NCBI GenBank assembly: GCA_030428945.1
Contig: JAUIEC010000005.1
Span: 186,001-250,000 of the forward strand
Direction: 5' to 3'
DNA: 64,000 nt
From: Phycisphaerae bacterium
GTDB lineage: Bacteria > Planctomycetota > Phycisphaerae > UBA1845 > Fen-1342
Below are positions 2,458-59,614 of this stretch, one piece after another. The notes below the pieces were generated by a model. That model was not told the origin of the DNA. It did no database searches and was given only the letters and a program-made list of their open reading frames with translations. The position numbers and the translations under genes are program-made. Within the stretch, counting starts at the first letter, position 1; each line of letters opens with the position of its first letter.

Positions 2458-4598
2458 CAGGTGTGCCCGTCCAGGCCGCAGCCCAGTGCGTACGGCGAGT
2501 ACACCACCGCGAGCCGCCCGTCGACTTCCAGCCCCCACAACACCGGCTCTTCCAGCGACGGCTCACGCTGCCGTACCGCTTCCTTGTAGCCGACCGTCTC
2601 GATCGGAAAGCCCGGCTGGCCGCGGAAGATCGGGTGCTCCAGGTCCAGCCGCCGCAGTTCCGCCTCCGGAAACGCCTGCTTCAGCAGCGCCCGGAAACTG
2701 CGGTCGAACTCTCCCCGCCCGCAGCACGCGTCCGCCAGCAGGAATCCACCCCGCCGCAGGTGCTCGGCCAGGGCCTTCCGCTCCGCCACCTCCAGTTCGA
2801 ACGAGTAATGCCCGGTCATGTACAGCAACGGGAACTGGTACAGCGTGCCGCCCGTCAGTGACACCGGCTGCGGATCGGCCGCCACCTCCATCTGCAACTG
2901 CCCGCGCAGAAACGTCGCGAAGTTCCGCAGCGCGTGCGGGTCCGGCCGCCAGTCGCCGCGATAGAAGACCTGCCCGATCCGCAGCGCATCGTCGGCCGGC
3001 AGTTCGCCGTCGCCGTCGGTCCGGATCCGCGGCACGACCACCACGTCGAGCCGGTCGCGCAGCGCCTGCCGGCCGGTCGCGAACGCCGCGATGTTCGTGC
3101 CAAGCTTGAAGGCCGCTTCGCTGAGCAGTTCGACATCCCGCTGCTCCCACAGGCACGAGAGATCCTGCGGGCTGTAGAGCAGGCTCGTCCGGCAGCCGAC
3201 CTCCAGGCCGTACAGCCCGCGGCCCGGCAGGTCGTAGAACGCGCTGTAGACCGGGTGCCCGTCGTCCAGCTTTCGCAGCGGCTGGCTCGGGAATGCCTCG
3301 CGGGCGAAAGCCTGCATCCCCGCCTGGAAACGCTCGTCCCCGCAGCAGGCCTCGAGCAGCAGCGTGCCCCCCTGCTGCAGGTACGCGATCACCTTCTCAC
3401 GCTCGGGCGGTGACCAGGCCGGGAATTCGTGCCCCTGCACGTACAGCAGCGGCGCCGCCAGCCAGTCCTCGAGCGGCTGCGAGAACGAGACGATCTGCCA
3501 GGCCGTCGGCTCGCCCAGCTTGTCGCCGATGAAGTCCACCAGGTGCTTGACGTCGTGCCGGTCCGGATTCCAGCGCTCGTCCTCGGCCCATTGCAGCTTC
3601 TGCACCAGCAGCGGCTTGTGACCCTTGGCCAGGAACAGGACCGCGAAGGCCGTGTCGGTCAGCCGGGCCGAGCGACTGCCCCACGATCCATCGCCGTTCT
3701 GCCGCCGCACCAGTTCACGCACGCCCGCCCGGTACCAGTCGTGCCGCCCGAAGTACTGCCGCCCCGACAGGATCCCGGCCCGCTCGACCGCGTACAGCCA
3801 GTAGAACTGGAACGAGGCCCCCCGCCGCGGATTCTCGTCGGCCGCGAAGTGCCGGCTGAGCCAGGCGAAGCCCTCCAGCAACGGACGGTTCGCGCGGTAG
3901 ACGCCGCAGCGCCGCGCCCGCCCGTTCTCGAAGCCGGACTCGACCGGCAGCGCGACCGTGCTGCCGAGAATCACCAGGTTGCTGACGTTCGCGGCCGTCA
4001 TGCTGCCGTAGCTCTCGCCGGTCGAGCGATACCGCCAGCCGCCGTCGTCCGCCTGCGAACGAATCACCGCCGCCCGGGCCCGCTGCCAGACGCCGGCCGG
4101 GACGCGCACGCCGGCCTCGGCCGCCGCGTGCAGTCCCAGCAGGGCGTACTGCGTGTTGGAATGGTCCCAGGCCTCGTCCCCCAACTGGTAGCCCCAGAGT
4201 CCCGAGCGGGTCTGCGCCTGGGCCAGCCAGCGGGCGGCCTCGCGGATCTGGTCGCGATAGGCCTGCGGATCGGCGGCGGCGAAGACCATCGCCTTGAGTC
4301 CGACCACGTAGGTGTGCCGGTTCCGGACCTGCTCGAGGAACGCCAGGGCGCTGCGGATCGCGCGGCTGCGGGGTGACTCGCCGGCCTGCAGCAGCGCCAG
4401 GGTCGCAAGCGCGGTCTCCCCGCCGGTCTTGTTGCTGGTCTCGCGCCAGCTTCCCCCGGCGGTCTGCATCCGGCGGAGGAAACGGGTACCGCGTTCGACC
4501 GCCCGGTCGACGGCCGCCCCGTCGGGCTGCGCGACGGCGGCCGGCGGCGGTGCAGTCAGGATCAGGCCCAGCATCAGGATGGGCAGCGTGCGGCGCAT
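2379..4598 (-). CDS. Secreted DUF4159 protein with N-terminal alpha-toroid repeats
   Basis: 739 aa from ATG 4598, which has a GGGGAA ribosome binding site and begins a signal peptide (MRRTLPILMLGLILTAPPPA). Residues of about 35-350 look like terpenoid-cyclase/prenyltransferase-type alpha-toroid repeats: GTRFLRRMQTAGGSWRE, RSGLWGYQL, SQADDGGWRYR, RRQNGDGSWGS. Residues of about 390-739 contain two DUF4159-like halves, each with a LLYVQGHEFPAWS- or LLYMTGHYSFEL-type motif followed by GGTLLLEACCGDERF or GGFLLADACCGRGEF. Planctomycetes carry many such proteins; I know of no proven role. The C-terminal CYNCQGLLDSDARKLTANIV is also typical. Confidence 0.85.
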   Translation of the reverse strand: MRRTLPILMLGLILTAPPPAAVAQPDGAAVDRAVERGTRFLRRMQTAGGSWRETSNKTGGETALATLALLQAGESPRSRAIRSALAFLEQVRNRHTYVVGLKAMVFAAADPQAYRDQIREAARWLAQAQTRSGLWGYQLGDEAWDHSNTQYALLGLHAAAEAGVRVPAGVWQRARAAVIRSQADDGGWRYRSTGESYGSMTAANVSNLVILGSTVALPVESGFENGRARRCGVYRANRPLLEGFAWLSRHFAADENPRRGASFQFYWLYAVERAGILSGRQYFGRHDWYRAGVRELVRRQNGDGSWGSRSARLTDTAFAVLFLAKGHKPLLVQKLQWAEDERWNPDRHDVKHLVDFIGDKLGEPTAWQIVSFSQPLEDWLAAPLLYVQGHEFPAWSPPEREKVIAYLQQGGTLLLEACCGDERFQAGMQAFAREAFPSQPLRKLDDGHPVYSAFYDLPGRGLYGLEVGCRTSLLYSPQDLSCLWEQRDVELLSEAAFKLGTNIAAFATGRQALRDRLDVVVVPRIRTDGDGELPADDALRIGQVFYRGDWRPDPHALRNFATFLRGQLQMEVAADPQPVSLTGGTLYQFPLLYMTGHYSFELEVAERKALAEHLRRGGFLLADACCGRGEFDRSFRALLKQAFPEAELRRLDLEHPIFRGQPGFPIETVGYKEAVRQREPSLEEPVLWGLEVDGRLAVVYSPYALGCGLDGHTCYNCQGLLDSDARKLTANIVLYALTR

Positions 4599-14919: not shown

Positions 14920-14973
14920 ACGTGCTGACGTGCCGACTTGCTTGCTTACTTGCTCACTTGCTTACTTGCTTGT
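14920..14973. repeat. CTTGCTTACTTG-type array at a gene 3' end
   Basis: GACGTGCT-like units pass into CTTGCTTA, CTTGCTCA, CTTGCTTA, CTTGCTTG units, ending at the stop codon (14974) of the minus-strand membrane-protein gene. On the sense strand it reads AAGTAAGC/AAGTGAGC right after the stop. Confidence 0.75.
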
Positions 14974-23410: not shown

Positions 23411-23459
23411 TGCCCCCTTCTTGCTCCCTCGCTCCCTCGCTCCCTCGCTCCCTTCCCAG
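23411..23459. repeat. CTCCCTCG-type array at a gene 3' end
   Basis: TTGCTCCCTCG, then CTCCCTCG repeated and CTCCCTTCCC, ending 1-4 bases before the stop codon of the minus-strand coiled-coil membrane-protein gene. On that strand it reads GGGAGCGA after the stop. Confidence 0.8.
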
Positions 23460-30122: not shown

Positions 30123-30185
30123 CCTTGCTTACCTGCTTACTTGCTTACCTGCTCACTTGCTCACTTGCTTACTTGCTCACTTGCC
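30123..30185. repeat. CTTGCTTACTTG-type array overlapping the nadC 3' end
   Basis: Eight or so units CTTGCTTA, CCTGCTTA, CTTGCTCA. On the minus strand they read AAGTGAGC/AAGTAAGC. The last seven codons and the TGA stop of nadC (30161-30163) are part of this array. Confidence 0.8.
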
Positions 30186-54018: not shown

Positions 54019-54372
54019 GAGGAGGGAGCGAGGGAGCAAGGGAGCGAGGGAGCGAGAAAAAGGAGGGGGATCGAATCGTTCGGAAGCCGCGTCGCCTGCC
54101 GGTGCCACTGCTCTTGTGCGGGATTGCCACGCGGTGCGGCATCGACGCCCGCAGCGCCCGCGTCGGATGCGAGCGCGGACCGCTGCGTCGATGACGCACC
54201 CTACAAGAATCAACTCCCTCGCTCCGTTGCTCTTCCCTCGCTCCCTCGCTCCCTCGCTCCCTCGCTCCCTTGCTCCCTCCTATGGCTCCCTTGCTCCCTC
54301 CCATGGCTCCCTTGCTCCCTCCCATGGCTCCCTTGCTCCCTCCGTGTCGCTTGCTCCCTGGCTCCCTTCTGA
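54019..54372. repeat. Composite: GGGAGCGA array, element A, CTCCCTCG array
   Basis: The left purine arm is at 54026-54060. Element A copy 5 is in the middle. A long right arm of CTCCCTCG, CTCCCTTG and CTCCCATGG units occupies 54210-54372, where a larger 19-21-base unit (ATGGCTCCCTTGCTCCCTCC) is itself repeated three to four times. The arms are complementary and enclose the cruciform. Apart from these repeats the 428-base space holds no gene. Confidence 0.85.
54129..54204. repeat. Element A cruciform repeat, copy 5 (reverse orientation)
   Basis: GCGGTGCGGCATCGACGC ... GCGTCGATGACGCACC, then CTAC. The inner arms CCCGCGTC and GAGCGCGG differ from copies 3 and 4, so only the outer 16-bp arms are shared by all copies. 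Confidence 0.75.
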
Positions 54373-55861: not shown

Positions 55862-55963
55862 AGTAAGCAGGTAAGCAAGTAAGCAAGTAAGCAAGTAAGC
55901 AAGCCAGCGCATCCGCCCAGCCTTGCTCACTTGCTCACTTGCTTACTTGCTTACTTGGTTGCT
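55862..55963. repeat. AAGTAAGC arrays forming a long hairpin
   Basis: The left arm (55862-55905) has GTAAGCAG, GTAAGCAA repeated. The right arm (55920-55960) has CTTGCTCA twice and CTTGCTTA units. Arms of about 35-40 bp are near-perfect complements around a 20-base loop. The left arm begins 2 bases after the purB stop. A further CTTGCTCACCTGC-type segment adjoins the DUF11 gene stop at 56066. Confidence 0.85.
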
Positions 55964-57520: not shown

Positions 57521-57777
57521 ACCTTGCATCTCCCTCGTACCAAACTGGTTAACAGAAACAACTCGCGCGTAAATCTCGTGGCAGGTCATCCACTCACTCG
57601 GCCGAATTCTAACCCTCGCCACCTGTCCCCTACGGGGGACCGAATCCGCGCGGAAAAAAACACGCCCGCGCCGGACCGGCCGCCGCGCATCCCACACGCC
57701 CGGAGCCGATGCGCCCGGCGTGAAACAGTCTCACCTGCCGCGTGGAACACGGCCCGCGGCCCGACCGGAACGCGCGA

Positions 57778-58911
57778 TCACCGACCCTTGTGCACAACCA
57801 GCGGACGCAGACGCCGCACCACCCGGATCGCCGCGCGCTGCCAGCGCAGCACCGCGGCCAGGTCCTTGTAGGCCTGCGGAGCCTCCTCGTGCAGTCCCGC
57901 CCCGCGACAGGCGTGCACGACGTCCGCCAGGCTGCGGGCCACCTCGCCGGAACGGAGCACGCGCCGGGCATCACGCCGCCGGACGCGACGCCCCGCACCG
58001 TGCGAACTGGAACACAGGCTCCCGGCCCAGCCACGCCCGACCACGTGCACGCTGAAGGTCCCCATCGAACCGGGGATCACGTTGGCCTGCGCCCGGTCGG
58101 CCTGGTTGGCGCCCTTGCGATGCACCCAGAGCCAGTCCTCCCCGTGCCGCTCGCGCTGCACATGATTGTGATCGCTCTCGCGCAGCCCGCTCCAGTCGGC
58201 CCGCACCGTGCACCGCCGCCCGAGGGCCTCGACCGCCGCGGCCAGCATCCGGCGACGACTCTCGGCCGCGTACGCCCGCGCCCAGGCCAGGTCGGACAGG
58301 TACGAATCAGCCGCCTCGGATTCCACCGGCAACCCCGCGAGCCCCTGCCCGACCGGCTCGGCCACTTCGAGGTGCAACCGGGTGACCGCCTGCCCGACGG
58401 CCCGCGACCCGCTGTGCACCAGCAGCCACAGCCGCCCGTCGTCGTCCGCCTGGATCTCGAGGAAGTGATTGCCGCTGCCCAGCGTGCCGAGTTCCAGCCA
58501 GCCATCGCGCCGCGCGGCCCGCCGCAGCCCTGGATTCGAAAGCGCCCGCGCATCCAGTTCGTCGCCAAACGGCGCCCGCGACAAGCCGCGCGCGAAGCGA
58601 CGGATCGGCACCGCCGTCCGCATGGCCGCCAGCGCGGCCCGACCGCGCGGCCCCGCGCGGACCGCGTCGGCCGACAGTTCAAGGGGCACGGTCGCGTAGC
58701 CGCACCCGATGTCCGCGCCGACCGCCTGCGGATACAGCCAGTCGCGGGTCGCCACCGCCAGGCCGTTGCAGATCCCGGGCGCCGGGTGGGCATCCGGCAG
58801 GACCACCACGCGGCAGACGCCCGGCGCGCGGACGATCCGCTGCACCGCCTGCCGGACCAGCGGATCGAAGTCCGCCCCCACCCAGGTCGCGGGTACCGGC
58901 TCAGTCGTCAT
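57778..58911 (-). CDS. rtcB: RNA ligase RtcB family protein
   Basis: Joins RNA 2',3'-cyclic phosphate or 3'-phosphate to 5'-OH using GTP and Mn. 377 aa from ATG 58911, somewhat shorter than E. coli RtcB (about 408). Metal and GMP sites are all visible: VGADIGCGYATV (C70), LGTLGSGNHFLEIQ (H149), WLLVHSGSRAVGQ (H166), DHNHVQRERHGEDW (about H250), VHRKGANQA, VIPGSMGTFSVHVVGRG, and SSSHGAGRRV, whose His (H304) is the guanylylated residue. It overlaps the RbfA-like gene by 11 bases, behind tRNA-Cys, with no rtcA or prfH nearby. Confidence 0.92.
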   Translation of the reverse strand: MTTEPVPATWVGADFDPLVRQAVQRIVRAPGVCRVVVLPDAHPAPGICNGLAVATRDWLYPQAVGADIGCGYATVPLELSADAVRAGPRGRAALAAMRTAVPIRRFARGLSRAPFGDELDARALSNPGLRRAARRDGWLELGTLGSGNHFLEIQADDDGRLWLLVHSGSRAVGQAVTRLHLEVAEPVGQGLAGLPVESEAADSYLSDLAWARAYAAESRRRMLAAAVEALGRRCTVRADWSGLRESDHNHVQRERHGEDWLWVHRKGANQADRAQANVIPGSMGTFSVHVVGRGWAGSLCSSSHGAGRRVRRRDARRVLRSGEVARSLADVVHACRGAGLHEEAPQAYKDLAAVLRWQRAAIRVVRRLRPLVVHKGR

Positions 58912-59314
58912 CGCCAGCCCTCCGCACGACCACGTCGAAGACCAGTTCCGGCGCCCGCCGGCGGTGAATCGCCTCGGCGATCTCCGTTCGCAGCCGCCCG
59001 GCCCGCAGCGCCAGAGCCGCCCGCGCCTCGGCCAGGGCGACCACGTCCGGCACCTCGATCCAGACCACCAGTCGCCCGGCGCACGCGGCCGGACGCACCT
59101 CGCGAACCACCGCCCGGGCGAACGCTTCGGCTTCGGGAATCCCACCCAGCGCCAGTTGCAGGGCGCGGGCGATCTGACTGCACAGTTGCCGCAGCTTGCG
59201 GCCGTCGCGACGCCGCGCGTCGCGGTTCCATTCACGGGGGTTGACCCCGTCATCCGGTCCGACCTCGCCGCACAACGCGCGCAGGTCGGCCGGCTTCCTC
59301 TTTCGGGAAGACAT
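58901..59314 (-). CDS. RbfA-like (ribosome-binding factor A) protein
   Basis: 137 aa from ATG 59314 (MSSRKRKPADLRALCGEVG). A basic N-terminus is followed by an RbfA-type KH fold: RKLRQLCSQIARALQLAL (the RVxxxIxxxL helix), VREVRPAACAGRLVVWIEVP, and the C-terminal hallmark RAGRLRTEIAEAIHRRRAPE then LVFDVV, matching the RbfA LRxELAxxLxLRxxPELxF pattern. It would bind the 30S subunit during 16S rRNA maturation. Coupling to rtcB (11-base overlap) instead of to infB or truB is unusual. The family match is by motif only; another small KH-like protein is possible. Confidence 0.65.
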   Translation of the reverse strand: MSSRKRKPADLRALCGEVGPDDGVNPREWNRDARRRDGRKLRQLCSQIARALQLALGGIPEAEAFARAVVREVRPAACAGRLVVWIEVPDVVALAEARAALALRAGRLRTEIAEAIHRRRAPELVFDVVVRRAGDDD

Positions 59315-59417
59315 AGCTGCTCCATGGCGACCGTCGGCGCGCAACGGCACCGCGGTCGAGAAGTTCGTTATTCAGACAAACATCGGAGACATGGCGCGGA
59401 AGGGCCGGGGATACGCG

Positions 59418-59540: not shown

Positions 59541-59614
59541 AGGCGACGGCGGGATTCGAACCCGCGAATGCCGGTTTTGCAAACCGGTCCCTTAGACCAC
59601 TTGGGCACGTCGCC
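59541..59614 (-). tRNA. tRNA-Cys (GCA anticodon)
   Basis: 74 nt. Acceptor GGCGACG pairs with CGTCGCC, discriminator T (U73, a Cys identity base). Anticodon stem CCGGT/ACCGG with loop TTGCAAA, so the anticodon is GCA. T-arm GCGGG, TTCGAAT, CCCGC. No encoded CCA. Confidence 0.97.

Follow-up and report, generated by a model that had tools for sequence, protein, structure and literature searches.

An RbfA paralogue paired with an RtcB-type RNA ligase in Phycisphaerae and other bacteria: a probable kit to mend or finish ribosomal RNA

The only dedicated rRNA-mending unit in the literature searched is the RtcB2-PrfH operon of E. coli ATCC 25922. According to the portions of the source available, the cut made by colicin E3 lies between A1493 and G1494, and the ends are sealed by RtcB2 after PrfH has acted and the subunits have been split (PMC9223846). 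In the same portions RtcA appears as the cyclase by which ends are made ready for RtcB (PMC9223846). RbfA governs how helix 44 docks at the decoding centre, as far as the accessible part of another account goes (PMC8201178). No description of an RtcB and RbfA pair was found in the literature searched; RNA-repair systems have been surveyed by Burroughs and Aravind (2016, as cited in the available part of PMC6514570), a work that lies outside that search and may already list the pair.

The window analysed here, meaning the whole stretch under study, comprises 64,000 nt of Phycisphaerae bacterium (GCA_030428945.1, contig JAUIEC010000005.1, positions 186,001-250,000). Its minus strand carries rbfA2, which encodes an N-terminally extended paralogue with the RbfA fold (137 aa, 58901-59314, assigned by family profile and fold), followed by an rtcB-like gene for an RNA ligase of the RbfA2-linked clade (377 aa, 57778-58911, assigned by Pfam RtcB). 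Read from 59314 to 58901 and then from 58911 to 57778, the genes overlap by 11 nt, as expected from a sequence-only reading that had described an intact RtcB overlapping an RbfA-like gene. The ATG at 59314 is the conserved start of rbfA2 and is preceded by GGAG; the mechanical open reading frame is longer (58901-59350, minus), and another of 515 aa (57778-59325) runs out of frame through rbfA2 and then into RtcB. A terminator-like hairpin with a T run lies 3' of rtcB (57664-57676, minus), a weak match with one found and 1.0 expected in shuffles. On the upstream side of rbfA2, at a distance of 226 nt, is a tRNA-Cys gene found by ARAGORN (59541-59614, minus), itself preceded by a sigma-70-like promoter match at 59678-59650 (minus). 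No terminator match was found between this promoter and rbfA2-rtcB, and the tRNA and the pair might share a transcript. Tandem repeats of 8 bp, resembling CTCCCTCG or CTTACTTG, form many short arrays scattered through the window, among them those at 2310-2377, 14937-14971, 23423-23453, 30124-30184, 54234-54367 and 55862-55957.

The window RtcB scores 229.3 bits against Pfam RtcB (cut-off 27) and is a member of that family. It has D67, C70, H166, H264 and H304, which are invariant in the 25 rows of A2, a profile of its clade, and also H149, which is kept in 24 of these rows. We take these six residues to be the metal-binding Asp, Cys and His and the guanylylated His of RtcB structures; judged by the alignment, the ligase active site is preserved. 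The predicted model (pLDDT 90.7) matches RtcB structures in PDB. The closest NCBIfam models are short RtcB types, and the protein scores below the cut-off of each. It reaches 168.1 with PRK09588 (cut-off 407) and 141.9 with release_rtcB (TIGR03073, cut-off 271.8). Its branch in the RtcB tree is long (1.27), and the planctomycete RtcBs linked to PrfH are found in another clade. PrfH above its cut-off is absent from the window genome and was detected in only 3 of 392 genomes. A PrfH-type RtcB is ruled out by the score, the clade and the missing PrfH, and the PrfH-coupled type to which the sequence-only reading had pointed is not what is found here.

With 16.9 bits against Pfam RBFA (cut-off 34.7), the window RbfA2 could not safely be labelled RbfA from this protein alone; among the RbfA2 places listed in relatives, 9 of 40 pass the cut-off. 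A family profile of ten rows (A1) recovers the canonical RbfA of the same genome at 35.2 bits (E 3.4e-8) and also matches the solved RbfA chains 1kkg and 7afl in PDB (E about 1e-3). A ubiquitin fusion on the top row of the PDB profile search was set aside, its score being only a sum of repeats. The AlphaFold model (pLDDT 84) has the predicted alpha-beta-beta-alpha-beta fold of RbfA. Its five best PDB matches are all RbfA structures, led by 7afq (TM 0.80 by target length), and its solved structural relatives include 30S-bound RbfA. Structure prediction, which had been proposed as a check on the suspected RbfA fold, therefore bears that fold out, and when family profile, PDB matches and predicted fold are taken together the RbfA identity is firm on sequence and modelling grounds. 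The core is preceded by an N-terminal tail, modelled with low confidence, that bears a conserved acidic motif, PDDG(V/I)(N/D)PR. This motif is commoner in RtcB-linked RbfA2 (34/39) than in unlinked RbfA2 (23/49), an enrichment that is given little weight because the pattern was picked after inspection and kinship is uncorrected.

Both members of the pair have counterparts in the same genome: the contig of the window also bears a canonical rbfA, adjoining infB, and another contig encodes a second RtcB, which falls in a different RtcB clade. The window pair is therefore made up of paralogues. A displaced housekeeping rbfA is ruled out by the copy beside infB. RbfA2 is separated from canonical RbfA in a tree (SH-aLRT 98) from which rows shorter than 85 aa, near-copies and two truncated loci were left out; this tree and the RtcB tree are both quick ones without bootstrap. 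Of 42 genomes with RbfA2, 38 also yielded a separate canonical RbfA, and the remaining four are 80-86% complete.

RbfA2 is present in 10 of 60 relatives of the window genome, or 11 of 61 with that genome counted. RtcB directly follows it in all nine close-relative loci that could be judged, the tenth locus ending inside rbfA2. Scanning of named genomes brought up 67 RbfA2 loci, chiefly in Planctomycetota with some in Myxococcota and Acidobacteriota, a spread that is a lower bound because two short peptide patterns were used. One further label, Alphaproteobacteria, probably reflects mis-binning since the protein is identical to one from the order of the window genome. RtcB lies directly downstream in 29 of the 67 loci, 37 are without it and one ends inside rbfA2. 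Across 392 Planctomycetota genomes there are 35 RbfA2 places of at least 80 bits in 33 genomes, with 11 adjoining the RtcB clade and 24 not. The frequency of such unaccompanied copies (37/67 and 24/35) indicates that RbfA2 can act without this RtcB. Some RtcB is encoded elsewhere in 31 of 33 genomes with unlinked RbfA2 loci. RtcB occurs in 287 of the 392 Planctomycetota genomes and is thus common across the phylum, so its mere co-occurrence with RbfA2 (31/33 against 256/359, Fisher p 0.003, uncorrected for kinship) is weak evidence. No general alternative partner for orphan RbfA2 emerged from neighbour clustering.

This distribution bears on the possibility that the two proteins act in ordinary 16S processing, for example by ligating excised or circular pre-rRNA ends. 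The available part of PMC8201178 describes canonical RbfA as a maturation factor, and dN/dS of about 0.04-0.2 for both genes in seven comparisons shows that the two partners are under purifying selection. A housekeeping step would nevertheless fit poorly with a presence so patchy among the relatives and in the phylum, and canonical RbfA is still there in these genomes; such a maturation role appears unlikely.

The 33 linked RtcBs form one clade in a tree of 73 rows (SH-aLRT 99), apart from PrfH-linked, approximately 497-aa, proteobacterial and other types. Plasmid RtcBs served as outgroups; four loci with partial RtcB matches (L021, L031, L057, L173), near-copies and loci without an RtcB ORF of 200 aa were left out. 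When A2 was searched against the 392 Planctomycetota genomes, 11 genes scored 468-590 bits and three 378-399 bits, and no other exceeded 330 bits. An RbfA paralogue lies directly upstream of each of these 14 genes but of none at the 16 loci fetched with lower scores. Among 235 Myxococcota genomes the same holds for all seven RtcBs of at least 349 bits, and RbfA2 is near in 2 of the 23 lower-scoring loci fetched. This reverse comparison is partly circular because the rows of the profile include nine of the 14 genes and one or more of the seven; the independent part amounts to 5/5 in Planctomycetota and at most 6/6 in Myxococcota. Two Myxococcota loci, L258 (RbfA2 at 3485-3943, minus) and L244, have RbfA2 close to an RtcB whose score falls outside the main linked group. 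Three loci of the planctomycete family f61 (L208, L209, L210) show a shorter RbfA paralogue lacking the acidic tail, followed by a divergent member of the same RtcB clade, and one of the f61 genomes (G116) also has a PrfH-RtcB pair (L177).

With starts placed by script, 32 of 39 linked loci show a gene overlap of 4, 8 or 11 nt; in the other seven the script placed a non-overlapping start or none. Pairwise distances among the RbfA2 proteins correlate with those among their RtcB partners over 33 pairs (Mantel r 0.62, 0 of 9999 permutations). A neighbourhood that is due to chance or merely operonic, with no joint function, would accommodate the many loci where RbfA2 stands alone, but it hardly accounts for a single RtcB clade, repeated gene overlap and reverse pairing in two phyla, and we regard it as very improbable. 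The two-gene module proposed from the sequence is real and is conserved well beyond the window genome, in close relatives, in named genomes and, viewed from RtcB, in two phyla. That proposal was to fall if the small protein lacked an RbfA/KH fold, or if a canonical rbfA existed beside infB and the pairing was not conserved. The fold holds; the canonical rbfA does exist, and the pairing is conserved nonetheless.

Other neighbours are less constant. A tRNA gene was found in 6 of the 29 RtcB-linked loci and tmRNA in one, and none of the tRNAs is tRNA-Cys. A module linked to tRNA-Cys is ruled out on that account, and the part that the sequence-only reading had given to this tRNA falls away. RtcA, the RNA 3'-terminal phosphate cyclase, is encoded directly beside RbfA2 with no RtcB linked in three loci (L037, 2629-3696; L039, 5490-6749; L040, 5485-6744, minus) and about 2.5 kb from it in a fourth (L085). 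It recurs in a few loci, two of them from Singulisphaera. Because RtcA prepares ends for RtcB, its place beside RbfA2 points to RNA repair. It would also suit repair of tRNA or of RNA in general, in which the RbfA/KH-type fold would be simply an RNA-binding adaptor with no link to the ribosome, and damaged tRNAs are described as regulators of an RtcB/RtcA operon in the available part of PMC7790460. We think this improbable, given that the partner is specifically an RbfA homologue, that its solved relatives include 30S-bound ones and that tRNA genes are not conserved neighbours. No RbfA2 was found on plasmids, and of the 25 plasmid RtcBs listed eight were inspected, six of them with annotation, none being annotated with an adjoining RbfA. 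The PADLOC defence models gave no match for RbfA2 or its RtcB.

The pair is probably a kit to mend or finish ribosomal RNA. Our main reading, a two-gene RNA-repair module in which RbfA2 guides RtcB to a break in 16S rRNA, is given a probability of about 0.5. It draws on the homology and fold of both proteins, the active site, co-inheritance, gene overlap, the separate canonical RbfA and the lack of PrfH. By analogy with what PrfH does for RtcB2, RbfA2 would attach to the small subunit of the ribosome (or to rRNA), pick out ribosomes that are damaged and expose the nick. It would then direct RtcB to the break, whose likeliest place is the 3' minor domain of 16S rRNA (helix 44, the decoding centre or the 3' end), and RtcB would rejoin the 2',3'-cyclic-phosphate and 5'-OH ends. 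Since RbfA controls helix 44 at the very site that colicin E3 cuts and RtcB2 reseals, we infer that RbfA2 may select or open damaged 30S subunits for RtcB. Binding of RbfA2 to the 30S subunit, contact between RbfA2 and RtcB, 16S rRNA as substrate and damage, not normal maturation, as the occasion would all follow from this reading.

A bolder version, to which we would give appreciably less than an even chance, is ribosome repair independent of PrfH in Planctomycetota, Myxococcota and Acidobacteriota. RbfA2 might recognise a 30S subunit cut near the decoding centre or the 3' end, lift helix 44/45 in the way that RbfA does in assembly and hand the nick to its dedicated RtcB, with the damaged subunit brought back to an assembly-like state. 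If this is true, there is a second rRNA-mending unit, built on a paralogue of an assembly factor, and cells can mend damaged subunits by returning them to an assembly-like state. It would also account for the second RbfA kept by many genomes of these phyla. The pair offers a direct bench test of how RtcB gets to buried breaks in rRNA.

The RtcB2-PrfH operon resembles the pair in having two genes, one for an RtcB paralogue and one for a paralogue of a ribosome factor, in its patchy distribution and in being additional to housekeeping copies. It differs in that PrfH is a release-factor homologue whereas the partner in the window is an RbfA paralogue, and in that the window RtcB, below the release_rtcB cut-off, does not group with the planctomycete RtcBs linked to PrfH. 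The RtcB-RtcA-RtcR operon shares the RtcB ligase family and, through the three loci where RtcA adjoins RbfA2, a second component; however, no RtcA or RtcR was seen beside the window pair, where an RbfA paralogue is found instead. Canonical RbfA has the fold of RbfA2 and is homologous in sequence, but RbfA2 forms a separate clade, carries an N-terminal extension and is an additional copy encoded away from infB.
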